Shown: in pieces, positions 5,667 to 32,690 of the stretch | Numbering within the stretch: the stretch's first letter is position 1 | Layout: the number at the start of each line of letters is the position of its first letter | Made by a program: the position numbers and the translations under genes | DNA from: an uncultured Pelagibacteraceae bacterium | GTDB lineage: Bacteria > Pseudomonadota > Alphaproteobacteria > Pelagibacterales > Pelagibacteraceae | NCBI GenBank assembly: GCA_902533775.1 | Contig: CACANA010000010.1 | Span: 1 to 34,651 of the forward strand | Reading direction: 5' to 3' | Length of the DNA: 34,651 nt | The notes under the pieces: model-generated | Told to the model about the DNA's origin: nothing | What the model saw: the letters and a program-made list of their open reading frames with translations, nothing else | Database searches by the model: none

Positions 5667-6785
5667 TTAGTTAAGCAAAGCTTTGTGAGCTGGTAAATAA
5701 TCATGGCCAAATACATCTGCTACAGCTTTATGAGTAACGCCTCCTTTAAATACATTTAATCCTGCTTGAAAATTTTGATCATCATTTAAAGCTTTTAAGT
5801 AACCATCTTTTGCTAATTTAGATAAAAAAGGAAGTGTTGCTTTGTTTAAGGCAATTGTTGATGTTCTAGGAACACCGCCAGGCATGTTTGCAACGCAATA
5901 ATGAATTATATCATCTATTATAAAAGTTGGTTCTGCAAAGGTAGTGGGTTTACTGGTTTCAACACATCCTCCTTGATCAATTGCAACATCTACAATCACT
6001 GATCCCCTTTTCATTTTTTTTAACATATTCTTTGTAACTAATTTTGGTGCCTCAGCACCCGGTATCAAAACTCCACCTACTAACAAATCACATTCAGAAA
6101 TTAATTTTTCTAAATCAGTTTTATCACTTAAATTAGGTATTATTTTATCTCCAAATATTTTGGAAAGTTCGTTTAATCTTTTTTCAGATTTATCTACAAT
6201 ATTAACCTTGGCTTTCATGCCTGTTGCAATTATAGCAGCATTTTCTCCTACTACTCCACCTCCAAGTATAACTACATTTCCAGGCTCTACACCAGGAGCT
6301 CCTCCTAACAAAAGACCACGGCCTTTTTGATTTTTTTCTAAACAATGTGCACCCGCTTGTACTGACATTCTTCCAGCTACTGCACTCATTGGTGCTAACA
6401 AAGGAAGTCTTCCGTTATTATCTGTGACTGTTTCATAAGCGATGCATATTGATTTGCTGTCTATTAAACCTTGTGTCAGTTCCTTGGCTGCAGCAAGATG
6501 AAGATACGTAAAGACAACTTGATTTTCTCTTATCATTCTTACTTCGCTAGATTGTGGCTCTTTGACTTTAACAATGATGTCGGAGTCGTTAAATATATCT
6601 TCAGCTGTATTAACTATTTTTGCTCCACTTGATACGTAATGATCGTTTTCAAATCCTGCTTCAAAACCTCCATTATTTTCAATTAAAACTTCGTGGCCAT
6701 TAGAAGTTAATGTCTTTACACTTTCGGGAGTGAGTCCAATTCTATTTTCTTGAGGCTTTATTTCTTTTGGAACCCCGATTTTCAT
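5667..6785 (-). CDS. ald: Alanine dehydrogenase
   Basis: MKIGVPKEIKPQENRIGLTPESV..., AAGRMSVQAGAHCLEK, GVEPGNVVILGGGVVGENAA, VANMPGGVPRTSTIALN. Confidence 0.96.
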   Translation of the reverse strand: MKIGVPKEIKPQENRIGLTPESVKTLTSNGHEVLIENNGGFEAGFENDHYVSSGAKIVNTAEDIFNDSDIIVKVKEPQSSEVRMIRENQVVFTYLHLAAAKELTQGLIDSKSICIAYETVTDNNGRLPLLAPMSAVAGRMSVQAGAHCLEKNQKGRGLLLGGAPGVEPGNVVILGGGVVGENAAIIATGMKAKVNIVDKSEKRLNELSKIFGDKIIPNLSDKTDLEKLISECDLLVGGVLIPGAEAPKLVTKNMLKKMKRGSVIVDVAIDQGGCVETSKPTTFAEPTFIIDDIIHYCVANMPGGVPRTSTIALNKATLPFLSKLAKDGYLKALNDDQNFQAGLNVFKGGVTHKAVADVFGHDYLPAHKALLN

Positions 6786-6794
6786 AGAATTAAA

Positions 6795-8138
6795 TTAATT
6801 TTTTTTGCTTTTTGAATAGTTTGTAATACCAGTTCTTAGTTTCTCGATTATTTCATCGATATGTTTTTTTTCACAGATAAACATTGGAGCAATAATTAAA
6901 CAATCTCCAGTCGCTTTAAAGTTAACTCCTGCATCATAACAGTGTTTGAAACATGTAAATCCTGCTGCGCCAGGTTTTTTATGCATTTTAATATCAATAC
7001 CACCCATCATTCCATAACCTCTTATGTTATCAACAACATCAATATCTTTTAAAGACATTAAACCTTCTTGGAAATATGGAGATAAATTTTTTGCTCTATT
7101 AAAGATATCATCTTTTTCAAAAATATCTTGAACCGCTAAGCCTGCAGCTACTGAGACAGGAATTCCAGAGTAAGTGTAACCATGAAATAATTCTATTGTT
7201 CCTTTTGGAGATCCATCCATAACTGTGTCATAAATTTCTTCTTTACACGCAACTGCACCTAAGGGACTTATTCCATTTGTTGTAGCTTTAGCCATTGTAA
7301 TAATATCTGGAGTAACACCGTATTCTTGCGATGCAAATGGTGAACCTGTCCTTCCCCATCCTGTGATAACTTCGTCAAAAACTAATAAAATACCATGCTT
7401 ATCGCAAATTTCTCTTAGTCTTTGTAAATATCCTTTTGGTGGAACTAATGTTCCTGTTGATCCAGCAATTGGCTCAACAATACAAGCTGCTATGTTCTCT
7501 GATCCAAAATTTGTACAAATTCTCTCAAGATCTTCTGCCATCTCTGCGCCTGTTTCAGGTTGACCTGAAACAAATTTATGTTCTGGTAAATGTGTATGTC
7601 TCATGTGAAGAACACCTGGCATCAAAACATTGGCAAATGTTTTCACGTTGTTAATCATTCCGCCAACAGAAGTAGCTCCGATATTCATTCCATGATAGCC
7701 TCTTTCTCTTCCAACAAACCTAAATCTATGTCCTTCACCTCTTGCTTTATGATATGCAACTGCAATTTTTATTGCAGTCTCAACAGCAGTAGATCCACAA
7801 ATTGTATAAAAAATTCTATTTAAATTTCCTGGTGTATGTTTTGAAATTTTTGTTGCAAGTTCAAATGAACCTCCAAAACCTTGTTGAAATGGTTGAGCAT
7901 AGTCTAATTTTTTTAATTGATTTGTAATTGCATTAATAATTTCTTCTCTTCCATGACCTAAAGGATTACAAAATAATCCCGAGCTTGCATCTATCTGAGT
8001 TTGACCTTGATGATTTTTTAAATAAACACCTTTTGCTTCTACAATCAATCTAGGAGACTCTTTAAAATCTCTATTAGATGTAAATGGCATCCAATGTTCA
8101 TTTAAAGAATTAGGTATTTGAGGTTTTTCTGAACTCAT
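6795..8138 (-). CDS. Class III PLP aminotransferase, probable taurine--pyruvate aminotransferase (or related omega-amino acid:pyruvate aminotransferase)
   Basis: LNEHWMPFTSNRDFKESPRLIVEAKGVYLKNHQG, VFDEVITGWGRTGSPFASQEYGVTPDIITMAKATTNGISPLGAV; adjacent to ald and tauABC. Confidence 0.85.
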   Translation of the reverse strand: MSSEKPQIPNSLNEHWMPFTSNRDFKESPRLIVEAKGVYLKNHQGQTQIDASSGLFCNPLGHGREEIINAITNQLKKLDYAQPFQQGFGGSFELATKISKHTPGNLNRIFYTICGSTAVETAIKIAVAYHKARGEGHRFRFVGRERGYHGMNIGATSVGGMINNVKTFANVLMPGVLHMRHTHLPEHKFVSGQPETGAEMAEDLERICTNFGSENIAACIVEPIAGSTGTLVPPKGYLQRLREICDKHGILLVFDEVITGWGRTGSPFASQEYGVTPDIITMAKATTNGISPLGAVACKEEIYDTVMDGSPKGTIELFHGYTYSGIPVSVAAGLAVQDIFEKDDIFNRAKNLSPYFQEGLMSLKDIDVVDNIRGYGMMGGIDIKMHKKPGAAGFTCFKHCYDAGVNFKATGDCLIIAPMFICEKKHIDEIIEKLRTGITNYSKSKKN

Positions 8139-8187
8139 AATTATGTTCGATTCATAGACTAATTATATAAATTAACCAGTAAATTTT

Positions 8188-8239
8188 AGTCATACTTGCT
8201 ATGTTAAATGACCGCAACTATAGGTTGTAACTTATGACT
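8188..8239. promoter_or_regulatory. Inverted-repeat element in the divergent aminotransferase/tauA promoter region
   Basis: AGTCATA (8188-8194) and TATGACT (8233-8239) are a perfect 7-bp inverted repeat; inner CAAC-TATAG-GTTG dyad. Confidence 0.3.
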
Positions 8240-8328
8240 TTTGAAGCCTGTGTAATTTATTCATCATTTACTTAAAAGAAAATTTAAACTTAAATATCGA
8301 TAATTAAATTTAATTAAGAGGAGATGAA

Positions 8329-9270
8329 ATGAAAAAAATAATTAGTTTCATTTTAGGAAGTTTATTTGCTCTAAACTTAACAATCACAGCAGCAAACTCT
8401 GCTGCGAACGAAGTTAGAGTTGCATACTTTCTAGAGTGGCCAAGTCCAAATTTAGAGGACATGCAAAAAAAGAATTTTGCTAAAGCCTTAGGAGTTCCAG
8501 TAAAATGGACAAACTTCACAAATGGTGGAGCAATGACAGATGCTATGTTAGCAGGAGATATTGATATTTCTTACTCACAAGGTTTAGTACCATTTATTAA
8601 TGCTGTAAAATCAAATGCACCTATCAAATTAGTTGATATTGCAATGGAGTACGGAATGGGTGGAACAACTTGTGTAACATCTAATGCTTCAGGAATAACA
8701 AAAGCAAATGCAACTGAATTAGAAGGTAAAAAAGTTGCTGTTCCGTTAGGTACTATGGCTGAGTACGTTTTCGACGAAAGTATGAAAGTTGTCGGCGCTG
8801 ACAGAAGCAAAATGGATATTATTCAAATGGACCCTGAAGAAGGTGCGGCTGCATTAGTAAGTGGAGATGTAGTAATGGCATGTCTATTTGGTGGTAATTC
8901 TATCAAAGCTGCAGTTGCTGTAGGATCAAGACTTTTAACTGTTCAAGAGGCAAGAGATGCAGGTATTTTAGGAATAGATATTACTTCTGTAACAGACAAG
9001 TTTATGAAGGAAAATCCTGGAATGTTGAGAACTTTTATTGAAGTAACTCATGAAGCAAATGAAAGATATAGAAATGGAAAAAGTGATATGAATTCTATGT
9101 CAAAAGCTTCGGAGATGAAAATTGCTGATATGAAAGAAACTTTAAGTGGTTTCAAATTCTTAACTCCAGAAGAAACTAAAAAATCTATGGAAAGCGGAAA
9201 CTTAGATGCATTCTTAAAAGGAATGGGAACTCCAGGTGGAGCAGTAGACACTAGTTTCTTACCTTTATAA
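8329..9270 (+). CDS. tauA: Taurine-type ABC transporter substrate-binding protein
   Basis: Signal peptide; VRVAYFLEWPSPNLEDMQKKNFAKALGVPVKWTNFTNGGAMTDAMLAGDIDISYSQGLVPFINAV; strong SD (gaggag) upstream; followed by tauBC. Confidence 0.88.
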   Translation: MKKIISFILGSLFALNLTITAANSAANEVRVAYFLEWPSPNLEDMQKKNFAKALGVPVKWTNFTNGGAMTDAMLAGDIDISYSQGLVPFINAVKSNAPIKLVDIAMEYGMGGTTCVTSNASGITKANATELEGKKVAVPLGTMAEYVFDESMKVVGADRSKMDIIQMDPEEGAAALVSGDVVMACLFGGNSIKAAVAVGSRLLTVQEARDAGILGIDITSVTDKFMKENPGMLRTFIEVTHEANERYRNGKSDMNSMSKASEMKIADMKETLSGFKFLTPEETKKSMESGNLDAFLKGMGTPGGAVDTSFLPL

Positions 9271-9290
9271 TTTAAAGATTAGAATAATTA

Positions 9291-9323
9291 AATAGGCGCC
9301 AATTTTATTGGTGCCTATTTTTT
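9291..9323 (+). terminator. Rho-independent-like terminator/attenuator between tauA and tauB
   Basis: AATAGGCGCCAAT-TTT-ATTGGTGCCTATT (13-bp stem with one G:U) followed by a run of T. Confidence 0.88.
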
Positions 9324-9352
9324 TAAGTAAATATTTTATATAAAGTCAGCTA

Positions 9353-10150
9353 ATGAGTGATTTGATATCTCAAAATCTAAACATGATTTTCAAAACTCCA
9401 AAAGGAGAGACTGTTCATGCTTTAAAAGATTTAAATTTCAAATTAAAAAAAGGAGAACTGTTAACTGTTCTTGGGCCCTCTGGTTGTGGAAAAACAACTT
9501 TATTAAATATTGCAGCTGGTTTCTTAAGACCAACATCTGGAAATATAACTTTGAACGGTAAAGAAATTGACGGGCCTGGAGTTGAAAGAGGCATGGTTTT
9601 TCAACAAGGTGCATTATTTGAATGGTTAACTGTTGCTGAAAACGTCAACTTTGGTCTTAGAATGAAAAAAAAAGATCCTATAGAAACTTCAAAAAAAGTT
9701 GATGATTGGCTGGAGATTGTTGGCTTAAAAGGATTTGGAAATACCCCAACATATCAATTATCTGGAGGAATGCAGCAAAGAGTAGCTCTTGCAAGGTGTT
9801 TAATTAATGATCCGGATTTGATTTTAATGGATGAACCTTTAGGTGCCCTTGATGCTCTAACAAGAGAAAAAATGCAATCATTAGTTTTGAAAATTTGGAA
9901 AGAAACTGGAAAAACAATTATTTTAATTACACATTCAGTTGAAGAAGCACTACTGCTTGGTGAAAGGTTGTACGTAATGGCACCAAGACCAGGTAGGATA
10001 CATAAAGAATATAATCTTCCATTTGCAGAGATGGGATTAAAAGAAGATTTAAGAGAAATAAAAAAAAATAAAGATTTTTCATCAAAAAGAGAAGAAATTT
10101 TATCCATGATTTGGAACATGGAGGAAGAAATTATGGGAAAAGAAAATTAA
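9353..10150 (+). CDS. tauB: Taurine/nitrate-type ABC transporter ATP-binding protein
   Basis: Walker A GPSGCGKTT, LSGGMQQRVALAR, LILMDEPLGALD, LITHSVEEALLLGERLYVMAPRPGRI. Confidence 0.93.
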   Translation: MSDLISQNLNMIFKTPKGETVHALKDLNFKLKKGELLTVLGPSGCGKTTLLNIAAGFLRPTSGNITLNGKEIDGPGVERGMVFQQGALFEWLTVAENVNFGLRMKKKDPIETSKKVDDWLEIVGLKGFGNTPTYQLSGGMQQRVALARCLINDPDLILMDEPLGALDALTREKMQSLVLKIWKETGKTIILITHSVEEALLLGERLYVMAPRPGRIHKEYNLPFAEMGLKEDLREIKKNKDFSSKREEILSMIWNMEEEIMGKEN

Positions 10151-12076
10151 ATGTTTACTCAAATAATAACAATATTAATTCTTGTATCAATTATCGGGTG
10201 CATACTTTATGGAAGACGTTTAATAAAAACTGAAAAAGTTGATGCAGTTTTTGGAAATCCAGAAAGAGCAAAAGGTGGAACTCATTGGATAATTGTTGGA
10301 AGCAGTGCAATATTGTTGGTCTGGCTTTATTATTCTTGGGATATTGCAAAAGGATTTTATCCAAAATCAGCAAATGAATTATGTCAGGTCGCAAAAATAA
10401 ATGAGTCTTTATTAGGATTAAAATATCAATTTCCAATTGAAGAAAGAGAATTCAAAAGTACTTCAATAATAAAAATAGAAAATAAAAATCTTAAAAAAAT
10501 AAGTTTAGAAATTCAAAATTCGTCAGATTTAAGCAACTTACAGAAAACTGCATTAGTTGGTTTTATTAATAAAACAAACAAATTAATTCCATTACTTACT
10601 AATGATAATCTAATGGAGATTAACACAAAAATTAAAATAGATGAGATGACTGATGAAATTAGATTGTTAAGCACTAATTTTCAAAAGAAAGATTATCCAT
10701 TTGAAACACCAGATCAAAAAAATGAAAGACTAAAGGCAATTGCTGAGCAAGGAAGCTGGGGCATAGTAACTGTAAGTGCCGGAACAGGATCAATAGAAAA
10801 TACTATTGAAGTGCCTTTAGTGCCTGAAACAGATAGAGGTTTAAAATTTCACGCTGCAGCTGAACAATTAAAAAAAATTAATGATAAATTTTTTAAATTA
10901 AGAAACCATAATCCTCAATTCAAAAATGCAATAAAAGAACTTAAATCAGAGATAAAATTATATAGAAAAAATTTAGATGACAATGAAGAAGTGGCATCTA
11001 CTTACGCAAAAAACATTGTAAAAATTGCAAGAAGAATTGAATTTGCAAGTATTTATCCACCAAATGCTCTTAATGAAATGCAAAATGCAATTATTGAATT
11101 TGATAATCTTCAAAAAACTGAGCAAGGGGGTTTAAGATTAATTGACATTCTTTTATTCCCTGCAGGAACTATAGTTGCAAGTGGTCCTAGTTGTTCTGAG
11201 CAAGGTTCAGGTAGATGGCTACCAAAACCCTCGGATACACTTAATAAATTTATTTTAATGTCTAAGCCAAGCGTAGGTTACAAAAATATTCCACTTCTTT
11301 GGATTGATATGATGGATGTAAGCCAAATAATTGGCTTTATGTTGCCAGATTGGATAGCTGATGTTTTGCCTGGAGAATATCCTGTTCACACTAAAGATGG
11401 TGTGGTTAAGCAAAATTTTAAAGGTAAAGTTTTAAAAATTGTTACAGGTGATTTTAAATTATTTAAAATTCCTGTTCCGTATGGTCATATTTGGGATTCA
11501 TTTTTAAGAGTTTTTCTAGGATTAGTTTTTGGAATATTGATTGGTGTACCATTAGGACTTTTTATGGGTTTAAATAGATTTGCTAAAGGTTTCTTTGATC
11601 CATTAATTGAACTGTATAGACCAGTACCCCCTCTTGCGTGGGCTCCTTTAATAATCTCGGTTTTAGGGATTGATAATACTGGAAAAGTATTTTTATTATT
11701 TATGGTTTCATTATCTATAATGATCATTTCAGCTAGAGCCGGAGCATCAGGTACACAGTTATCTAAAATACATGCAGCGCATTCTCTTGGTGCTTCTAAA
11801 AGACAGATACTTAGATATGTTATTTTTCCAAATTCTTTACCTGAAATTTTAACAGGTATTAGAGTGGCGGTTGGTATGTGTTGGGGAACTTTAGTTGCAG
11901 CAGAATTTTTAGCAGGTACAACTGGAATTGGATTTGTTGAAAATGTTGCCAAAAAGTATTTTCAATATGAAGTAATTTGGATCACAATTTTTATTATGGG
12001 TATGTTGGGTCTTCTATTTGACGTAACTTTGAGAAAAATTATAGATAAGACAATTCCTTGGAGAGGAAAAGGTTAA
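10151..12076 (+). CDS. tauC: Taurine-type ABC transporter permease with large N-terminal extension
   Basis: C-terminal approximately 220 aa is a canonical BPD_transp_1 permease (HIWDSFLRVFLGLVFGILIGVPLGLFMGLNRFAKGFFDPLIELYRPVPPLAWAPL...); N-terminal region has two TM segments and a long soluble segment. Confidence 0.9.
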   Translation: MFTQIITILILVSIIGCILYGRRLIKTEKVDAVFGNPERAKGGTHWIIVGSSAILLVWLYYSWDIAKGFYPKSANELCQVAKINESLLGLKYQFPIEEREFKSTSIIKIENKNLKKISLEIQNSSDLSNLQKTALVGFINKTNKLIPLLTNDNLMEINTKIKIDEMTDEIRLLSTNFQKKDYPFETPDQKNERLKAIAEQGSWGIVTVSAGTGSIENTIEVPLVPETDRGLKFHAAAEQLKKINDKFFKLRNHNPQFKNAIKELKSEIKLYRKNLDDNEEVASTYAKNIVKIARRIEFASIYPPNALNEMQNAIIEFDNLQKTEQGGLRLIDILLFPAGTIVASGPSCSEQGSGRWLPKPSDTLNKFILMSKPSVGYKNIPLLWIDMMDVSQIIGFMLPDWIADVLPGEYPVHTKDGVVKQNFKGKVLKIVTGDFKLFKIPVPYGHIWDSFLRVFLGLVFGILIGVPLGLFMGLNRFAKGFFDPLIELYRPVPPLAWAPLIISVLGIDNTGKVFLLFMVSLSIMIISARAGASGTQLSKIHAAHSLGASKRQILRYVIFPNSLPEILTGIRVAVGMCWGTLVAAEFLAGTTGIGFVENVAKKYFQYEVIWITIFIMGMLGLLFDVTLRKIIDKTIPWRGKG

Positions 12077-12079
12077 TCC

Positions 12080-13135
12080 TTAATCGTTAAGCAACCGTAA
12101 TTCTTTTTCGTCGAATTTTAAGTAAACGTTTTCTCCAACATTAAATATTTCATTGGTATCACTAGAAACTACGTAAATTTTACCGACCTTTGAATTAACT
12201 ATGTACTGATAACTATTTCCAACGAATGACGCGTTATTAACAGATGCATGTATTGAGTTTTCTTCAGGACTTTTTGAAATAGTTATTTTTTCTGGTCTTA
12301 AAGAGACAGAAACTGAACTTTCTAATTTTTGATCACTTTCTATATTAATTTTCATTTCTGCTAATTGAATCTCGTAAACATTATTATTTTGATTAATGAT
12401 TTCAGCTTTAACAACATTTGCATCTCCTATGAAGTTGGCTACAAATTTAGTTTTAGGAAAATTATACAATTCTTTTGGGCTACCTTGTTGAGCAATAATA
12501 GCATTGTTCATTACAATTACTTTGTCAGAAATTGCTAATGCTTCCTCTTGATCATGAGTTACATAAATTGTAGTTACTCCAAGTTTTTGTTGAATTTCTC
12601 TAATATCCTCTCTTACTTGTCTTCTTAATTTTGCATCTAAATTAGATAAAGGCTCGTCAAAGAGTAAAACTTTAGGTTTCAGCACAATTGCTCTTGCGAC
12701 AGCTACTCTTTGTTGCTGACCTCCAGATAATTCTGAAGGCATCCTATTTTCATATCCTTCTAAATTAACCAACTTAAGAGTTTCTAATGACTTTTCTGTA
12801 AATTCTTCTTTTGGAACATTAATCATCTTCAAACCATAAGATACATTTTCAAGTACACTCATGTGTGGAAACAATGCATAAGATTGAAATACCATAGATA
12901 CATCTCTATCGGTTGCTGGTAATAACGTTACATCTTCATTATCCACTAAAATTTTTCCACTTGTAGCTCTCTCTAAACCAGCAATAATTCTTAAAGAAGT
13001 AGTTTTTCCACATCCTGATGGACCTAATAGCGTAGTTAAAGTTCCTGCCTCAAAAGCACAACTGACATTATCCACAGCAATAGTCTCATTAAATTTTTTT
13101 GTAATATTTTCAAATTTTACTTCAGCTTTTTTCAT
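12080..13135 (-). CDS. ABC transporter ATP-binding protein (Fe3+/polyamine type, with TOBE-like C-terminus)
   Basis: GPSGCGKTTSLRIIAGLERATSG, LSGGQQQRVAVARAI, LLFDEPLSNLDAKLR, YVTHDQEEALAISD; C-terminal SLRPEKITI. Confidence 0.92.
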   Translation of the reverse strand: MKKAEVKFENITKKFNETIAVDNVSCAFEAGTLTTLLGPSGCGKTTSLRIIAGLERATSGKILVDNEDVTLLPATDRDVSMVFQSYALFPHMSVLENVSYGLKMINVPKEEFTEKSLETLKLVNLEGYENRMPSELSGGQQQRVAVARAIVLKPKVLLFDEPLSNLDAKLRRQVREDIREIQQKLGVTTIYVTHDQEEALAISDKVIVMNNAIIAQQGSPKELYNFPKTKFVANFIGDANVVKAEIINQNNNVYEIQLAEMKINIESDQKLESSVSVSLRPEKITISKSPEENSIHASVNNASFVGNSYQYIVNSKVGKIYVVSSDTNEIFNVGENVYLKFDEKELRLLND

Positions 13136-20698: not shown

Positions 20699-21985
20699 AT
20701 GGCAATTACTTATATAAAAAAAGCTGAGAAAACTGCATTTACAGGTGAAGATGAAACAAGAACAAAAGTAAGTTCAATTTTAAAAGAATTAGAAAAAACA
20801 AAGGACCAAGGGGTTAAAGATATTTTAAAAAAATTTGATAATTATGAAGGTGATATAATTGTTAGCAAAGAAAAAATTGAAGAAATAAACAAAACTTTAG
20901 ATCAAAAAATTAAAGATGATATTCAGTTTTCTCATGAAAGAGTAAGAAAGTTTGCAGAACATCAACTAGAAAATCTTGGAAAAGACTCAGAAGTTGAATT
21001 ATCACCTGGTTTAATAGCAGGACAAAAATTAATACCTGTAAATACGGTTGGGTGTTACGTACCCGGTGGAAGATATAACAATATCGCCTCTGCTATAATG
21101 AGTGTAACGACTGCAAAAGTTGCCGGAGTAAAGAATGTAATTGCAACAAGTCCACCCAAAGATTCAAATGGTGCAAACCCAATTATAATTTATACGGCTA
21201 ACCTTTGTGGTGCAGATGTAATTATGAACATTGGTGGTATAGGGGCAATTGGTGCGCTTGCATATGGTTGCTTTGGTAATCCAGAGGTAGATATGATTGT
21301 TGGACCTGGAAATAAATTTGTAGCAGAGTCTAAAAGAATTTTATTTGGAAAAGTTGGAATTGATTTATTTGCTGGACCAACAGAAATAGGCATAATAGCT
21401 GATCATACAGCTGATAAAGAAATAATTGCTTATGATTTAGTTGGACAGGCTGAACATGGCCCTGATTCTCCAGCTTGGCTTTACACTACAGATAAATCTT
21501 TATGTGATTATGTGATGAAAAGAGTTCCGGAAATTATTCAAGAACTACCTGAACACAACAGAAATAATGCTGATGCTGCATGGAGAGATTATGGAGAAGT
21601 AATTATGTGTGATACCAAAGAAGAAATGTTAAAGGTTAGTGATGAATATGCTCCTGAACATTTAGAGGTTCAGGCTGAGAACTTAGATTGGTATTTAAAA
21701 AATTTAAAAAATTATGGTTCATTATTTTTAGGTGAGGAAACAACAGTTGCATATGGTGATAAATGTTCTGGACCAAATCATATTTTACCAACAAAGGGAG
21801 CAGGAAAATATACTGGCGGCTTATACGTTGGAAAATTTATAAAAACAGTTACTTACCAAAAAATGAACAAAGAATCTAATAAAGAAGTCGGTGCTGCTGC
21901 GGCTCGAATTTCAAGGTACGAGGGTATGGAAGCGCATGCTAGAACTGGTGATGTTAGACTTCGAAAATATGGTTTTTCAAACTAA
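20699..21985 (+). CDS. Histidinol dehydrogenase family protein, probably HpsN-like (sulfopropanediol 3-dehydrogenase type) rather than HisD
   Basis: HisD-fold motifs (VGCYVPGGRYNNIASAIMSVTTAKVAGV, VGPGNKFVAESKRILFG, GLDLFAGPTE-like, GQAEHGPDSPAWL) with HpsN-like signatures WRDYGEV, NYGSLFLGEETTVAYGDK, GPNHILPTKGAGKYTGGLYVGKFIKTVTYQ. Confidence 0.8.
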   Translation: MAITYIKKAEKTAFTGEDETRTKVSSILKELEKTKDQGVKDILKKFDNYEGDIIVSKEKIEEINKTLDQKIKDDIQFSHERVRKFAEHQLENLGKDSEVELSPGLIAGQKLIPVNTVGCYVPGGRYNNIASAIMSVTTAKVAGVKNVIATSPPKDSNGANPIIIYTANLCGADVIMNIGGIGAIGALAYGCFGNPEVDMIVGPGNKFVAESKRILFGKVGIDLFAGPTEIGIIADHTADKEIIAYDLVGQAEHGPDSPAWLYTTDKSLCDYVMKRVPEIIQELPEHNRNNADAAWRDYGEVIMCDTKEEMLKVSDEYAPEHLEVQAENLDWYLKNLKNYGSLFLGEETTVAYGDKCSGPNHILPTKGAGKYTGGLYVGKFIKTVTYQKMNKESNKEVGAAAARISRYEGMEAHARTGDVRLRKYGFSN

Positions 21986-24620: not shown

Positions 24621-25709
24621 TCAATCATTTTTAATTTTTTCAAACACATCAATACCTATTTGCTTTAAAATATGGACTATATCGATAGGCACCCAGTTCT
24701 CTCTAATTAATCCTTCATCGTGATGATAAAAATCCATTACTCTCATAACAACATCTTGATTGTCAGCTGTATATCCAAGCCAATCATTTGATCCATACTT
24801 TGCCTTTAAACTATGCCATCCACCACATAAAGAAAATTTTCCGTCTCCAATTTCGCAATAATGTCCTAATTCCCAATAATTTCTCTCAGAAAATGATTTT
24901 CTAAAAGGTAACTGATGCATATCTACAAATCCTTCTAATGACCTCGATGTTCCAATTCCACAAGGACCGTACCAAATCATATCTTTGTGCCAAAACTCTT
25001 TTTGAGGATGAGTTATTAACCTTTGTCTTAATTCATCTTTAGAAATATTTTCTTTCTCAGGTTTAATATCTAAACTTCTATTCATGCTCAAAGCCTGTTG
25101 TAATGAATTTTTAGATTTACTCATGTCTTCTTCAAAAAAATTTACTCCATCTGTATTAAACGGAGGTAACCATGCTCCTTCGGATCCTCTTGATGGATTA
25201 ATAACCCATTTATCAGCTTGTCTTAAAAAATCCATCACATCAATTAAGATATGACTTTCAATAATTCTTTCATTTTTAATTTCATGAATTTCACAACATT
25301 TAAGATTAATCATTTTAAAATTTGGCTTTATACCTAACCAAGGCTTTAAAAAGAAACCTGATAAAGTAGAATAAGAACCAACTTGGACTTTGTCTCTAAA
25401 AGAGCCTCCAAGGATGATATTTTCTCTTCTTTCGATGTCTGGAAATGCATCAAATAAAGGATTCCAAAATTTTTCTATAAAATTATCTATGCCATTAAAT
25501 TCATTTAATGGTTCAAAACAATTAACTTTGATATCTTTATCAAATATATTTAGTAAATTTTTTTTAAGATTAATCTTTTTTAATCCATAAATATTTCTAA
25601 AATTCTTAATAACAAATTTTTTATTATTTAAGTTTTGGATAGGTGTAATTTCTACATCTTCAATGTTTTTCTTAATTTTAAGACCTGTATCAAATTGTTC
25701 TATTTGCAT
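24621..25709 (-). CDS. Double SnoaL/NTF2-like domain protein
   Basis: Start at ATG 25709 (MQIEQFDTGLKIKK...); two SnoaL-like segments: NEFNGIDNFIEKFWNPLFDAFPDIERRENIILGG and ...GTSRSLEGFVDMHQLPFRKSF...ENWVPIDIVHILKQIG. Confidence 0.72.
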   Translation of the reverse strand: MQIEQFDTGLKIKKNIEDVEITPIQNLNNKKFVIKNFRNIYGLKKINLKKNLLNIFDKDIKVNCFEPLNEFNGIDNFIEKFWNPLFDAFPDIERRENIILGGSFRDKVQVGSYSTLSGFFLKPWLGIKPNFKMINLKCCEIHEIKNERIIESHILIDVMDFLRQADKWVINPSRGSEGAWLPPFNTDGVNFFEEDMSKSKNSLQQALSMNRSLDIKPEKENISKDELRQRLITHPQKEFWHKDMIWYGPCGIGTSRSLEGFVDMHQLPFRKSFSERNYWELGHYCEIGDGKFSLCGGWHSLKAKYGSNDWLGYTADNQDVVMRVMDFYHHDEGLIRENWVPIDIVHILKQIGIDVFEKIKND

Positions 25710-25750
25710 AAATTGCAATTTATATTTAAATAGAGATAAATAACAAGAAT

Positions 25751-26689
25751 ATGATTGATAGATTGGCAAAATTTAATGAGCTCGTTCCGAGTAGCCTCCC
25801 TTTTGTAGAGGGTAGATTAGAAGGTCATAAAGAAAGAAAAAATTATACAATTATTGGACGTGGTGTCGCTGAAGACACCAAACAACTAATAAAAATACAG
25901 TCTTTACATGGGTATAATTTAGGAGCAGTGAGTGCTATGCCAAAAAATGGATCTGGTCTTCACAGTCATACTACGGCTGAAGTGTTTGTAATTTACTCAG
26001 GTAAATGGAGATTTTATTGGGGTGCTGATGGAAAACAAGAAACAATATTAGAAGCTGGCGATATAATTTCAATGCCTACAAATATGTTCAGAGCATTTGA
26101 AAATGTTGGAGATAAAGAAAGTTTGATGTTTGTTGTATTAGGCGGAGATGATCCTGGTATAATAACATGGGTTCCAGAAATTTTAAAAAGGGCAAAAGAG
26201 ACCGGTATGGCATTGCTTGATGATAATTCGTTAATAGATTTAAAAAAGGTAGAAGTGCCTAACGGTAGAAAGATGATAGAGCCTATCACTCAAGATGAAT
26301 TAGAAAGATTTGATAATTATTTGCCAGAAGAATTAGAAAAAAATATTTATAGAAATAAACAAAACAATATTAGCGATGAAGTTAATGGTATTAAATTATT
26401 TCAAGTATTAGGAAACAAATTTAATAAAAAAACTTATGAACCTTCAATCAAACAAGATACTGGATTTAATTTAACAACATTAAATTCTATATCTGGTGAA
26501 ATTAAAGGTATTGAATGTATAAAGCCTACCGTTCTTTTTGCTCAAGAAGGTAATTGGAAAATAGTAATAGGAAACTCAAATATAAAATTAGAAAAAGGAG
26601 ACACTTTTTCAGTTCCTTTGAGTAGCAAAATAGATATCTCTTGTAATAATTCAGAAAATAGTATTTTAAATTTTGTTAGTCAGATCTAA
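25751..26689 (+). CDS. Cupin domain-containing protein (probably two cupin domains)
   Basis: GSGLHSHTTAEVFVIYSGKWRFYWGADGKQETILEAGDIISMPTNMFRAFENVG is a clear cupin; C-terminal NWKIVIGNSNIKLEKGDTFSVPLSSKIDI resembles a second degenerate cupin. Confidence 0.82.
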   Translation: MIDRLAKFNELVPSSLPFVEGRLEGHKERKNYTIIGRGVAEDTKQLIKIQSLHGYNLGAVSAMPKNGSGLHSHTTAEVFVIYSGKWRFYWGADGKQETILEAGDIISMPTNMFRAFENVGDKESLMFVVLGGDDPGIITWVPEILKRAKETGMALLDDNSLIDLKKVEVPNGRKMIEPITQDELERFDNYLPEELEKNIYRNKQNNISDEVNGIKLFQVLGNKFNKKTYEPSIKQDTGFNLTTLNSISGEIKGIECIKPTVLFAQEGNWKIVIGNSNIKLEKGDTFSVPLSSKIDISCNNSENSILNFVSQI

Positions 26690-27648
26690 TGAAAGGATTT
26701 GATAGTAATTATAAAAATTTAACTGATTACATTTTAAAAATTACTAAACAAATTTGGGAAGGGAAAGATGTCGAGTCGATATCTAAATATTATTCAGAGA
26801 ATATCCCCGTAAGATCACCCTTTGGAATAACTTATGGTTTTAAACCTGTTATTGATGCAACTTATAAAACTTTAGACGAATTTCCAGACAGACAATTATT
26901 AGGTGAAGATGTAATTTGGAGTGGAAATGACGATGAAGGATATCATTCATCTCACAGAATTCTGAGCAAAGCTACACATTTAAATGACGGGTATTACGGA
27001 AAAAAAACAGGAAACAAAATTGTTTATAGAGTTATAGCTGACTGTGCATGTAAAAATAATCAGGTTTATGATGAGTGGATTGTAAGAGATCAAGGTGCAA
27101 TGGTTCGACAGCTAGGTTATACACCTGAGCAATTCGCAAGGCATTTAATTGATAAAGAAGGTGGGGCATCTAAAGCTATCAAAGTTTATAATAGATCTTC
27201 TGATAAAAAGTCAGAGTATACTCCAGTAAAAGTTGATGAAGATTCATCAGGTTATATATATTCAAATATTTTAAAGAAAATATTTAATAATGATTATGAT
27301 TTTGAAGATTATGATAGAGCAGCTAGTCTATTTTGGCCAAGTAATAAAGTTGGAAATGGCAGTGATGATATAATTAAATATTGGAGCTCTTTAAAAAATA
27401 TATTTTCTGAAATAAAGTTTACAATCGAACATGTTGCATCATTAGATGAAAAAAATAACAATCAAAAAGCTACAATCAGATGGTTTTTAAGTGGTATGCA
27501 TTCTAAAGACAGTGAAGAATTTGGGAAAAAGACTGACAAAGATTTATTTATAATGGGTATAAATCATGCAGAATTAAGAGATGATAAAATAATAAGAGAA
27601 TGGGTATTGTTTGATGAAGTGGCTATTTGGAAACAAATATTAATGTAA
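26689..27648 (+). CDS. Double SnoaL/NTF2-like domain protein
   Basis: YYSENIPVRSPFGITYGFKPVIDATYKTLDEFPDRQLLGEDVIW and second repeat ending GINHAELRDDKIIREWVLFDEVAIWKQI. Confidence 0.72.
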   Translation: MKGFDSNYKNLTDYILKITKQIWEGKDVESISKYYSENIPVRSPFGITYGFKPVIDATYKTLDEFPDRQLLGEDVIWSGNDDEGYHSSHRILSKATHLNDGYYGKKTGNKIVYRVIADCACKNNQVYDEWIVRDQGAMVRQLGYTPEQFARHLIDKEGGASKAIKVYNRSSDKKSEYTPVKVDEDSSGYIYSNILKKIFNNDYDFEDYDRAASLFWPSNKVGNGSDDIIKYWSSLKNIFSEIKFTIEHVASLDEKNNNQKATIRWFLSGMHSKDSEEFGKKTDKDLFIMGINHAELRDDKIIREWVLFDEVAIWKQILM

Positions 27649-27653
27649 AAACT

Positions 27654-28781
27654 ATGGATAAAATTAAAACCACACATGTTGGAAGTCTGCCAAGATCAAA
27701 AAAACTATCTGAAATACTTTTTAAAAAAGATAAAAATGAATTATTTAATCAAGGAGAACTTGATAAGATAATTGAAGAAGATGTAAACAAAATTGTAAAA
27801 AAACAAATTGATATCGGAATTGACATTGTAAGTGATGGTGAAATGTCAAAAATAAGTTACGCTACCTACGTCAAAGATCGATTACATGGCTTTAGTGGTG
27901 AAAGCGAAAGAAGAGCTCCTAAAGACTTAGATGATTTTCCATCATATAAAGAAAAAATTGCAAAATCAGGAGGCACACCTACTTATACAAGACCATGTTG
28001 TACTGCTGATTTAAAAATTAAAGATACTAAATCTTTAACTAAAGATATCAGTAATTTAAAATCTGCATTAAAAAAAAATAACCATTCTCAAGGATTTATA
28101 AACTCTGCATCACCAGGAGTAATTTCAAATTTCCTTCCAAACAAATTCTATAAAAATGACGATAAGTATTTAGAGGCATTATCAAAAATGATGAAAACTG
28201 AATATGATGAAATAACAAAAAATGATTTATTATTGCAAATTGATTGTCCAGATCTTGCACTTGCAAGACATATGACTTTTAAAAATGTATCAGATGAAGA
28301 ATTTTTAGTAAGAGCTGAAAAACAAATCGAATGTCTTAATGAAGCAATCAAAGATATCGATGCCTCTAAGTTGAGAATGCATATCTGCTGGGGAAATTAT
28401 GAAGGACCACATATTCACGATATTGGATTAGAAAAAATATTACCTATTGCTTTAAAAGCAAATATCCAAACTTATTTAATTGAAGCCTCGAACCCAAGAC
28501 ATGCTCATGAATGGCAGGTTTTTGAGAATATTAAACTTCCTAATGATAAAGTAATAGTTCCTGGTGTAATAGACTCAACCTCAAACTTCATAGAGCATGA
28601 AGAGTTAGTAAAAAATAGAATAATTCAGTATTCAAAAGTAATTGATAAAGATCAATTGATGGCTGGAAGTGATTGTGGATTTAGTACTTTTGCAGGCTTT
28701 GGAAATGTTGATGAAAATATTGTTTACAAGAAATTTGAATCTTTAGTCGCAGGTGCAGAGCTTGCGTCAAATGCGATTTAA
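27654..28781 (+). CDS. MetE C-terminal-like (cobalamin-independent methionine synthase II family) protein
   Basis: KTTHVGSLPRSKKLSEIL N-terminus; Zn-ligand-like HICWGNYEGPH and GSDCGFSTFAGFG. ATG at 27654 preferred over 27627 (avoids overlap). Confidence 0.85.
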   Translation: MDKIKTTHVGSLPRSKKLSEILFKKDKNELFNQGELDKIIEEDVNKIVKKQIDIGIDIVSDGEMSKISYATYVKDRLHGFSGESERRAPKDLDDFPSYKEKIAKSGGTPTYTRPCCTADLKIKDTKSLTKDISNLKSALKKNNHSQGFINSASPGVISNFLPNKFYKNDDKYLEALSKMMKTEYDEITKNDLLLQIDCPDLALARHMTFKNVSDEEFLVRAEKQIECLNEAIKDIDASKLRMHICWGNYEGPHIHDIGLEKILPIALKANIQTYLIEASNPRHAHEWQVFENIKLPNDKVIVPGVIDSTSNFIEHEELVKNRIIQYSKVIDKDQLMAGSDCGFSTFAGFGNVDENIVYKKFESLVAGAELASNAI

Positions 28782-28854
28782 AAACTACTTTTAAATTCCC
28801 TAAGGAATATATATCCTTTCATCCATAAATTTAAATTTAATGAGGGAAACAAAT

Positions 28855-30075
28855 ATGAAAAAAATATTAATATCTTTATTGTTTCTTCTTTTTGGAACTT
28901 CTGTTTACGCAGATTGTAACATTAAGAGTGGATCAATAAATATTTTAGCTAATGATTTTCCAGCTTTAAGAACTTTCGTGGAAACAGCTAAAGGATGTAA
29001 AGGAAGTGCGGATTTTAAAGTCACACATTCATCTGAGCACAATAAAATTGCTGTGCCAGCTCTAACTGCAAATCCATCGGAGTTTTCTGCAAGAATTGCA
29101 GCAAATAGCTCTATAGTTCCTTTGATGAACCAAGACTTAATTAGACCACTTGATGATCTTGTTAAGAAATATGGAAAAGGAATACAAGACTCTCAATTGA
29201 TAACAATTGATGGAAAAATAATGGCAGTTGCTTTTATGGCAAATACTCAGCACTTATATTACAGAGAAGATGTTTTAAAAGAATTGGGTATAGCTGTTCC
29301 TAAAACATATGAGGAAGTAGTTGCGGCATCAGAAAAAATAAGAGCATCTGGTAAAATGCAATATCCTTACGCAGCAGCATACAAAGCTGGTTGGAATTTA
29401 GCAGAAGAATTCGTTAACATGTACATTGGACATGGAGGAGAATTCTTTAAAGCAGGAACTGCTCAACCAAGCATTAACAATACAAAAGGTGTAGCAACAT
29501 TAAATATGCTAAAAAAATTAGCAGGTTTAAGTAACCCAGATTATTTAACTCACGATAGTGAAGCTATTAAAGTTGAATGGGAATCTGGAAATGTTGCATT
29601 AATGACCCTTTGGGCATCAAGATCAGGAACATTGCTTGATGATGATGGTGATGCAAAAATTACAGCTGCAACTAAATTAACTGGACCAGCAACAGTTGCT
29701 GGAGGAAACATACCAGCGGCGACTTTATGGTGGGACGGTTTCACATTAGCAAAAAATAGATCTGACGCTGATGCTGAAGCAACATTTAGAGCTTTGGCAC
29801 ACGCAGCTGCTAACAAAAAGATGGTTGCAGATGCAGCGGATCAAGCTGTTTGGTTAATTGAAGGTTTTAAACCTGGACCAAAATCAATTGGAGTTATCGA
29901 AGCTGTTAAAATGAAAGCTAAACCATATCCAATGTTACCACAAATGGGTTTAATGCATGGTGCATTAGGAAGTGAGATTGTTGAATTTTTACAAGGTAAA
30001 GAGTCAGCAGAACAAGCTTTAAAAGATGTGGAAGCAGCTTACATGAGTAAAGCAAAAGAACAAGGCTTTCTATAA
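28855..30075 (+). CDS. Carbohydrate-type (family 1) ABC transporter substrate-binding protein
   Basis: Signal peptide from ATG 28855 (MKKILISLLFLLFGTSVYADC) preceded by GAGGGA SD; YYREDVLKELGIAVPKTYEEVVAASEKI; precedes MalF/MalG-like permeases. Confidence 0.9.
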   Translation: MKKILISLLFLLFGTSVYADCNIKSGSINILANDFPALRTFVETAKGCKGSADFKVTHSSEHNKIAVPALTANPSEFSARIAANSSIVPLMNQDLIRPLDDLVKKYGKGIQDSQLITIDGKIMAVAFMANTQHLYYREDVLKELGIAVPKTYEEVVAASEKIRASGKMQYPYAAAYKAGWNLAEEFVNMYIGHGGEFFKAGTAQPSINNTKGVATLNMLKKLAGLSNPDYLTHDSEAIKVEWESGNVALMTLWASRSGTLLDDDGDAKITAATKLTGPATVAGGNIPAATLWWDGFTLAKNRSDADAEATFRALAHAAANKKMVADAADQAVWLIEGFKPGPKSIGVIEAVKMKAKPYPMLPQMGLMHGALGSEIVEFLQGKESAEQALKDVEAAYMSKAKEQGFL

Positions 30076-30087
30076 TCAATAAATTTT

Positions 30088-30111
30088 AAGTGGGGATGAA
30101 AATCCCCACTT
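30088..30111 (+). terminator. Hairpin with GAAA tetraloop 3' of the carbohydrate-type SBP
   Basis: AAGTGGGGAT-GAAA-ATCCCCACTT, perfect 10-bp stem, no following T-tract. Confidence 0.75.
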
Positions 30112-30120
30112 ATTACATTA

Positions 30121-31149
30121 ATGCCTAACAAAACTTTTTTTTGGTTTTTCTTGCCAACTGGATTGGCAATGATTTTATTTATAGGTCTTCCTATTATTTC
30201 AACAGGGATACAATCATTTTATGCGCAGCACGACCAAGTAGTTAAGGAAGTAAAAAAATGTGATCCTTTTGGATGTACAGTTTCTATAGTTGTTGACCAA
30301 GAAAAAACCTCAAAAATTCGAGAAGAAAAGCCTTTAGGAAAATTCAACGGATTTGGGACTTATGTAGATAGAAATCATCTTGCAATAGAAGAAATTGGAA
30401 AATTTTGGAATGAAACTAATAGTTTTGAGGAATTTGTAGATCAAGTTACCAACCTACCCTTTTACAAGGCTCTAATTTTTACTTTAACTTATTGTTTGTT
30501 TGTAACGCCTAACGTCTTACTTTTAGGTTTTATAATTGCATTAAGTCTTAATGCAGTAACTAGAAGAATTAGAGGGCCACTAATATTTGGAACCATATTG
30601 CCGATGATTGTTACTCCATTGGTGGGTTCTTTAGTTTTATTTTGGATGATAGATGCAGAAGGAATTATTGGCGCGAATTTGCAGATGTTAATGGATGACC
30701 CTTATTTATCGTTAAAATCCTCAAAAACTCTTACTTGGATAACTATAATAATTTATGGAATTTGGCACCATTCACCATTTGCTTTTGTAGTATTTTATGC
30801 AGCTTTACAAACTGTTCCCCAAGAACCTGTTGAAGCAGCTATTATTGATGGAGCATCAAGATGGCAGAGAGTAAGACATATTGTTTTGCCTCATATTTAT
30901 CCCGTAGTTACATTTGTTGCTCTTATTTCATTGATGGATAATTTTAGAGTTTTTGAGCCCATAATTGGTTTCAGTGCTGAAGGAAGCGCTCAGTCTTTGT
31001 CTTGGTTGATTTATGACAATCTCGTAAATGAGGAAGTAATATTATTTGGTTCAGCCGCTGCCACTTCAATGATGACAATTGTTGGTATAGCGATACTTTT
31101 AGCACCAGTTTTAATAAGAACTTGGAAAGAATTTAGGACAGCTAGATAA
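30121..31149 (+). CDS. MalF-type ABC sugar permease
   Basis: EAA-loop EPVEAAIIDGASRWQRVRHIVLPHIYPV; located between SBP and MalG-type permease. Confidence 0.9.
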   Translation: MPNKTFFWFFLPTGLAMILFIGLPIISTGIQSFYAQHDQVVKEVKKCDPFGCTVSIVVDQEKTSKIREEKPLGKFNGFGTYVDRNHLAIEEIGKFWNETNSFEEFVDQVTNLPFYKALIFTLTYCLFVTPNVLLLGFIIALSLNAVTRRIRGPLIFGTILPMIVTPLVGSLVLFWMIDAEGIIGANLQMLMDDPYLSLKSSKTLTWITIIIYGIWHHSPFAFVVFYAALQTVPQEPVEAAIIDGASRWQRVRHIVLPHIYPVVTFVALISLMDNFRVFEPIIGFSAEGSAQSLSWLIYDNLVNEEVILFGSAAATSMMTIVGIAILLAPVLIRTWKEFRTAR

Positions 31150-32031
31150 ATGGAATACGGACTTGATAAAAGATCGAATGCTTTAAAAATTTTTAATACA
31201 ACCTTTATAATAGTTTGGTTGTTGGTTGCATGCTTTCCATTTATTTGGACTTTCTGGGGATCATTTAAAGTAAGAGCTGATTTTTTTTCAAGAGCTGACT
31301 GGTGGTATGCTATTACAGCATTCAATACGTTGTTAGAAACTGGAGGAAAGTTTACAACAGATGCTTATAGTCAAGCATGGACAGAAGGAGAGTTTTGGAA
31401 AGCATCTAGAAATACAGTTATAGTTACATTTTTTGTTGTAACCATTTCATTGTTCCTCGGGACCTTAGGAGCTTACGCTTTATCTAGGTCTACAAGAAAT
31501 TACGCATTTTGGATTTTAATTGCTGCATTAATTTTTAGAGCAATGCCTCATATTACATTAGTCTCTGGTTATTTATTTCCTTTTTTTCAATTACAAATTT
31601 GGGGAATACTACCAACAACCATTGTTGTTCTTGTTGCAATAAATCAACCATTTACTTTGTGGTTATTGTATTCATTTTTTAAAACTGTTCCTAAAGAACT
31701 TGATGAAAGTGCTTTAATTGATGGCTGCTCTTATTTTCAAGCATTTAGACATATCATTATGCCAGTTATGTGGCCTGGAGTAATAACAGCTGGATTATTT
31801 AGTTTAATGCTTGCGTATAATGATTTTACAGTGACAGCTCTTTTATTAAATCAGGAAAATCATACTATGGTACCCAAAATCCAAAGTTATCTTGGAACAA
31901 ATCAACATGAAGGTAATTTGATGTGGGCTGTTTCAGCAGTTGTTTCAGCTACTGCTCCTTTATTTATGTTAGTTATGTTTTTCCAAAGACAAGTAATCAG
32001 TGGATTAACAGCTGGTGCTGTGAAGGGATAA
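31150..32031 (+). CDS. MalG-type ABC sugar permease
   Basis: WTFWGSFKVRADFF, TVIVTFFVVTISLFLGTLGAYALSR, KELDESALIDGCSYFQAFRHIIMPVMWPGVITAGLF. Confidence 0.92.
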   Translation: MEYGLDKRSNALKIFNTTFIIVWLLVACFPFIWTFWGSFKVRADFFSRADWWYAITAFNTLLETGGKFTTDAYSQAWTEGEFWKASRNTVIVTFFVVTISLFLGTLGAYALSRSTRNYAFWILIAALIFRAMPHITLVSGYLFPFFQLQIWGILPTTIVVLVAINQPFTLWLLYSFFKTVPKELDESALIDGCSYFQAFRHIIMPVMWPGVITAGLFSLMLAYNDFTVTALLLNQENHTMVPKIQSYLGTNQHEGNLMWAVSAVVSATAPLFMLVMFFQRQVISGLTAGAVKG

Positions 32032-32690
32032 TGAGTTACAAAGCTGTTTTATTTGGTTCTATTGGAACTTTAGCTGAGACTTCAGATCTTCAAAGAGATG
32101 CATTTAATGAAGCTTTTAAAATAAGTGGATTAGACTGGTTTTGGGATGAAGATATATACAGAAAACTATTGTCAAAATCAGGTGGAACTACGAGAATTAA
32201 TGATTACGCAAAAGATACTAGTGTTGAAATAGACGGAAAAAAAATAAGAAATTTAAAAACCAAAATTTTTAATGAATATTTAAACAAACACAAAGTTGAG
32301 CCTAGAGACGGTGTAAAAGAAATAATTCAATTTTGCAAAAAGAACAAAATTAAAATTGGGCTTGCTAGCTCAACAACAAGTAACAATATCAATTCTATAT
32401 TTAACTCGTTAAGAGGAAGAATTGAAAAAAAAGATTTTGATTTTATCGGCAATAATGAATTCATATTAAGAGAAAAACCATATCCCGATATTTATAATTA
32501 TGCTTTAAAATACTTGAATATTAACTCAGACGAATGTGTGGCAATTGAAGATACAGAAGAAAGTTTAAATTCTGCTTTAAGTGCAGATATAAAATGCATT
32601 GCGTTTCCTGGAAAATATCACACTCAATACGAATTTGATGGAAACTATTTAAAGGTTAATAAATTATCAAAAAAAATCTTTAATAAATAA
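32031..32690 (+). CDS. HAD-superfamily protein (CbbY/beta-phosphoglucomutase-like) lacking the motif I aspartates
   Basis: ATG at 32031 overlaps permease TAA; MSYKAVLFGSIGTLAETSDLQRDAFNEAF, ASSTTSNN (motif II), REKPYPDIY (motif III Lys), AIEDTEESL (motif IV). Motif I reads FGSIGTL rather than FDxDGTL. Confidence 0.85.
   Translation: MSYKAVLFGSIGTLAETSDLQRDAFNEAFKISGLDWFWDEDIYRKLLSKSGGTTRINDYAKDTSVEIDGKKIRNLKTKIFNEYLNKHKVEPRDGVKEIIQFCKKNKIKIGLASSTTSNNINSIFNSLRGRIEKKDFDFIGNNEFILREKPYPDIYNYALKYLNINSDECVAIEDTEESLNSALSADIKCIAFPGKYHTQYEFDGNYLKVNKLSKKIFNK

Follow-up and report, generated by a model that had tools for sequence, protein, structure and literature searches.

Hydrolysis and phosphotransfer by proteins of the HAD superfamily run through an aspartyl-phosphate formed on the first aspartate of motif I. 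The stretch of DNA analyzed here (34,651 nt, hereafter the window), which comes from an uncultured Pelagibacteraceae (SAR11) bacterium, encodes a HAD protein that has neither this aspartate nor the second one of the motif, and this raises the question of what such a protein does. The ORF extends exactly from position 32031 to position 32690 (+ strand), from ATG to TAA, and encodes 219 amino acids (MSYKAVLFGSIGTLAETS). As the original prediction had stated, both motif I aspartates are replaced. The motif, which is FDxDGT in HAD phosphatases, reads FGSIGTL at 32052–32072, within the context A-V-L-F-G-S-I-G-T-L; Gly9 occupies the position of the nucleophile and Ile11 that of the acid/base Asp. 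The residues that catalytic HAD proteins have in motifs II and III, predicted to be intact, are indeed in place: Thr115 (A-S-S-T, 32373–32375) and Lys149 (REKPYPD, 32475–32477). The same prediction for motif IV stands for the acids Glu173-Asp174 (AIEDTEES, 32547–32552), but not for the Gly that follows them (EDSxxG) in 100% of the relatives with a DxD motif I, which is Ser178 here, so that motif IV is not wholly canonical.

By sequence and by predicted fold (Pfam, AlphaFold, and Foldseek), the protein belongs to HAD subclass C1, with a Rossmannoid core and a helical cap. It matches Pfam HAD_2 (PF13419) with an E-value of 2.5e-22 and 80 bits (cut-off, 23.8), and its AlphaFold model, of mean pLDDT 96.7, has the fold of CbbY. 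The best Foldseek match in the PDB is 4uat, the D10N variant of CbbY with xylulose-1,5-bisphosphate (TM 0.84, 217 columns), and the nearest solved structure by sequence is likewise CbbY of Rhodobacter sphaeroides (E-value 1.1e-35). With this enzyme (PDB 4uar, 4uas, 4uat, and 4uau) the window protein has in common the cap signature W-W-Y...GGxxR and the Thr, Lys, and Glu-Asp residues of motifs II–IV; it differs in both motif I aspartates and in the Glu and His of DGTLAETExxHR, which are Ser18 and Gln21 (32082–32093). Fold and motifs II–IV are also those of beta-phosphoglucomutase and other C1 phosphatases, which, unlike the window protein, have the nucleophile and the acid/base Asp. Among curated models, only the broad HAD-IA model TIGR01509 scores above its cut-off. 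All the specific families tried remain below theirs, including the beta-phosphoglucomutase models TIGR01990 (67.9 against 189.4 bits) and TIGR02009 (76.7 against 153.35 bits, E-value 2.5e-21).

It was then relevant to know whether the altered motif could be an error or a sign of decay. A contig scan yielded 57 Pelagibacteraceae loci including motif I, from records of separate isolates, mostly named as single-cell genomes (AG- or AH-). FGSIG is kept in all 57, in 13 synonymous spellings, dN/dS is 0.09–0.15 within four groups of SAR11 orthologues, and neither frameshifts nor stops occur in the HAD gene among the compared sequences. The gene is thus under strong purifying selection. As the same motif is present in separate isolates, most of them single-cell genomes, error and decay both fail as explanations. 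A sequencing error in motif I and homologues retaining DxD in the same context had been named beforehand as the two findings that would speak against the original prediction; the independent single-cell genomes contradict the former, and no example of the latter was found. The full-length, non-decaying state of the gene and its translational coupling to the upstream permease gene had also been predicted, and both hold: the HAD start codon and the stop codon of the permease gene overlap in 57/57 SAR11 loci (TAATG in 45, TTGA in 12), and in the window the ATG shares one base with the TAA of permease B (TAATG).

Homologues were searched for in the class, in the family of one Rhodobacteraceae genome, and in the order of one SAR116-like genome, the lineage labels of the searched genomes (Rhodobacteraceae, SAR116, and others) being inferred from gene content and genome size. 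The 62 sampled proteins with a G[SA][IV]G motif I (the GSIG clade) come from SAR11, SAR116-like bacteria, Rhodobacteraceae, and other alphaproteobacteria. All of them have Gly at the nucleophile position within GSIG, GAIG, or GSVG, whereas the 33 nearest relatives all read D[VI]DG, and no intermediates were found. In a maximum-likelihood tree of the 62 GSIG and 33 DxD proteins, every GSIG sequence lies on one side of a single branch (support 94/100 with all columns), and the split persists without the motif I columns (SH-aLRT 84). The window protein, whose motif I is of the G[SA][IV]G form and which also has ETSxxQR, therefore falls into this separate GSIG clade and not within the DxD CbbY clade. 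The GSIG clade has a single origin, from the xylulose-1,5-bisphosphate phosphatase family CbbY. DxD and GSIG paralogues occur together in two genomes, which shows that the GSIG protein is more than a degenerate version of a genome's sole CbbY; the genome of the window has no further close relative of its HAD protein. Outside the class, four matches of a phylum-wide search were fetched, two of which (G530 and G771) are DxD proteins and two of which could not be read by the motif pattern. A named member of the clade, encoded by a Roseobacter litoralis plasmid, is WP_187432052.1. Phage origin or carriage was rejected, as a scan of viral contigs revealed no GSIG gene. A role in the repair of Rubisco metabolites was rejected as well: GSIG genes were never seen in cbb operons, unlike a DxD relative which sits in the Rubisco operon of Mesorhizobium huakuii.

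Comparison with the DxD group shows which positions changed along with motif I. In the clade D->G, V->S/A, and D->I/V are fixed within the motif, and so are E18S and H21Q, Ser and Gln being invariant in 62/62 members. Residues G12, E16, N26, W38, R55, R92, E173, and D174 are invariant, T115 (98%), K149 (97%), and K76 (92%, the remainder Arg) nearly so; there are about ten invariant positions among clade proteins of merely 30–40% likeness. Arg55, in the cap domain (32193–32195), is invariant in the DxD group too. The motif III Lys is also lost in one SAR11 subclade (L007, L060, L063, L079, L081–L083, and L085), where Asn replaces K149.

The gene context was established from ORFs and Pfam matches. 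The HAD gene follows, on the + strand, genes for a cupin protein (25751–26689), a double SnoaL-like protein (26689–27648; annotated in public records as ester cyclase or as NTF2 family), a MetE-like protein with the Meth_synt_2 domain only (27654–28781), an ABC substrate-binding protein (SBP_bac_1; 28840–30075), and the CUT1-type ABC permeases A (30121–31149) and B (31150–32031). A second double SnoaL-like protein is encoded divergently (24621–25769, − strand). This order, from the cupin gene to the HAD gene and with the divergent SnoaL pair, is that of SAR11. A HisD-like dehydrogenase is encoded at 20699–21985 (+ strand); in other genomes, its relatives are part of this locus. Elsewhere, the locus of the same importer includes up to four SnoaL-like genes, an ATPase, HisD-like and SDR dehydrogenases, a LacI regulator, a cupin, a MetE-like protein, and an RraA-like protein.

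Several further observations concern this region. The locus comprising importer, SnoaL, HisD-like, SDR, LacI, cupin, MetE-like, and RraA-like genes recurs in SAR11, SAR116-like bacteria, and roseobacters (24621–32690 in the window; L219, L225, L237, and L270), and its importer and SnoaL genes are also present on a Vibrio pelagius plasmid. Relatives of the SnoaL-like protein at 26689–27648 (about 35–45% identity) are encoded by many plasmids, among them some recorded for Sinorhizobium, Phaeobacter, Ruegeria, and Deinococcus. The SAR11 importer (28840–32690) has no adjoining ATPase gene, the locus ATPase being present in other lineages; the nearest Pot/MalK-type ATPase of the window is encoded at 12080–13135 (− strand). 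Upstream, positions 5667–12076 hold a taurine-like set (alanine dehydrogenase, class III aminotransferase, substrate-binding protein, ATPase, and permease), and in lineage L118 relatives of its dehydrogenase and aminotransferase are found near the HAD gene, together with a sulfatase. Participation of the MetE-like neighbor in glycine betaine demethylation was considered and rejected: according to PMC12478193, SAR11 bacteria are without MetE and mtg genes, and a term search of that paper did not bring up the locus.

We then analyzed how closely the HAD gene is tied to the importer. It lies within or beside the locus, or parts of it, in SAR11, in lineages L118 and L119, and, at distances within 12 kb, in 26 further SAR116-like or Rhodobacteraceae genomes; in most Rhodobacteraceae and in part of SAR116 it is unlinked from the importer. 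In many Rhodobacteraceae (L186, L188, L191, L194–L196, and L202), the GSIG gene adjoins carB or lies close to it, at a distance from the importer locus. With counts that ignore kinship, permease B was detected in 8/8 SAR11 genomes with the HAD gene and in 0/53 without it. In the other two sets, where motif I was read in the fetched loci only and the remaining genomes were assigned by score, the figures are 46/52 against 24/84 for the SAR116 order and 16/17 against 91/232 for Rhodobacteraceae (one genome per genus; p 7e-6). Four of these 16 Rhodobacteraceae hits fall into a more distant group of permeases, and if only strong permease hits are taken, 12/17 and 71/232 genomes remain (p 0.001). 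Two genomes have the HAD gene and no importer (G164 and G836, the latter 74% complete). As the 91 Rhodobacteraceae and 24 SAR116 genomes have the importer and no HAD gene, the protein is not essential to the locus. Ruegeria conchae has an otherwise complete copy of the locus without an adjoining HAD gene. The predicted tie to the importer is thus real, as shown by coupling in SAR11 and by co-occurrence, but it is not simply physical; the idea of a simple permease-associated protein is weakened by the lack of linkage in most Rhodobacteraceae.

With Gly at the position of the nucleophile an aspartyl-phosphate cannot be formed, which excludes ordinary HAD phosphatase or mutase chemistry; cleavage of xylulose-1,5-bisphosphate is not to be expected, and the protein is very probably no phosphatase in the usual sense. 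Phosphate can still be held by what is left of the site, and the cap retains its recognition residues, which favors a pseudo-phosphatase that would bind a phosphorylated ligand and regulate or assist the importer-linked pathway. We assign to this reading a probability of about 0.5. The retained Thr115/Lys149 site, Arg55 and Lys76 of the cap, and the motif IV acids may bind a phosphorylated, sugar-like intermediate of the pathway, which would not be hydrolyzed, and the ligand-bound state would control or assist the importer or an enzyme. In SAR11 the protein, presumably produced along with the permeases, may serve in the cytosol as a sensor or partner, and in Rhodobacteraceae as an unlinked partner. 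As one SAR11 subclade lacks the motif III Lys, perhaps not every member binds phosphate at the canonical site. The original prediction, which had left the choice among a sensor, a ligand-binding pseudo-phosphatase, and an enzyme with altered chemistry, is supported in this wider form.

The third of these options is the main rival, as the invariant motif IV acids and the new S18/Q21 pair could likewise belong to a new active site. A non-hydrolytic enzyme of the SnoaL/HisD/SDR pathway (for instance an isomerase, a lyase, or a mutarotase) would dispense with a nucleophilic Asp and work with Glu173-Asp174, Ser18, Gln21, and the residues that bind phosphate. There would be little reason for the motif IV acids to be invariant if the fold alone mattered, Ser and Gln substitute Glu and His in every clade member, and the gene co-occurs with a metabolic locus. 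However, its absence from complete copies of the locus, such as that of Ruegeria conchae, and from many importer-bearing genomes means that the protein would not be an obligatory step of the pathway, and we know of no HAD protein with chemistry of this type; we regard this possibility as a serious one, though less likely than ligand binding. In its most specific form, which is rather unlikely, the GSIG proteins would make up a novel class of enzymes built on the HAD C1 scaffold, catalyzing a reaction without phosphoaspartate on a sugar-phosphate from that pathway of abundant marine bacteria; the site would consist of the old metal- and phosphate-binding residues Glu173-Asp174, Thr115, and Lys149 and the new, invariant Ser18 and Gln21.

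The protein might instead assist the importer or a SnoaL enzyme as a partner in structure or assembly, with no ligand role left for the old active site. This would agree with the coupling to permease B throughout the SAR11 loci and with the subclade devoid of the motif III Lys. It is improbable, since the pocket residues are the best-conserved part of the protein and since gene and importer are not linked in Rhodobacteraceae and some of SAR116. For an ordinary, active CbbY-type phosphatase whose motif was misread, for a sequencing error, or for a decaying pseudogene, there is hardly any room left: CbbY homology is clear, but the 57 SAR11 loci and the 62-member clade agree, dN/dS is about 0.1, and frameshifts and stops are absent.

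HAD pseudoenzymes with the fold and without the catalytic Asp are already known, TIM50-type domains among them. These and others are eukaryotic or otherwise unrelated, whereas the GSIG clade is bacterial, derived from CbbY, and tied to an importer locus. Searches of the open-access literature brought up no description of GSIG-type HAD pseudo-phosphatases, of the SAR11 SnoaL/cupin/HisD locus, or of the importer substrate, and, as far as searched, a class-wide pseudoenzyme of this kind is undescribed. As the nucleophile is missing throughout the clade, the annotation "HAD-IA family hydrolase", carried by WP_187432052.1, very likely gives the wrong function for all its members, which occur in some of the most abundant bacteria of the ocean. 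The clade is a clean natural example of a phosphatase whose conversion into a non-phosphatase took place a single time, in the distant past, while the rest of the pocket was kept, and its members provide a handle on an import-and-catabolism locus common to SAR11, SAR116-like, and roseobacter genomes.
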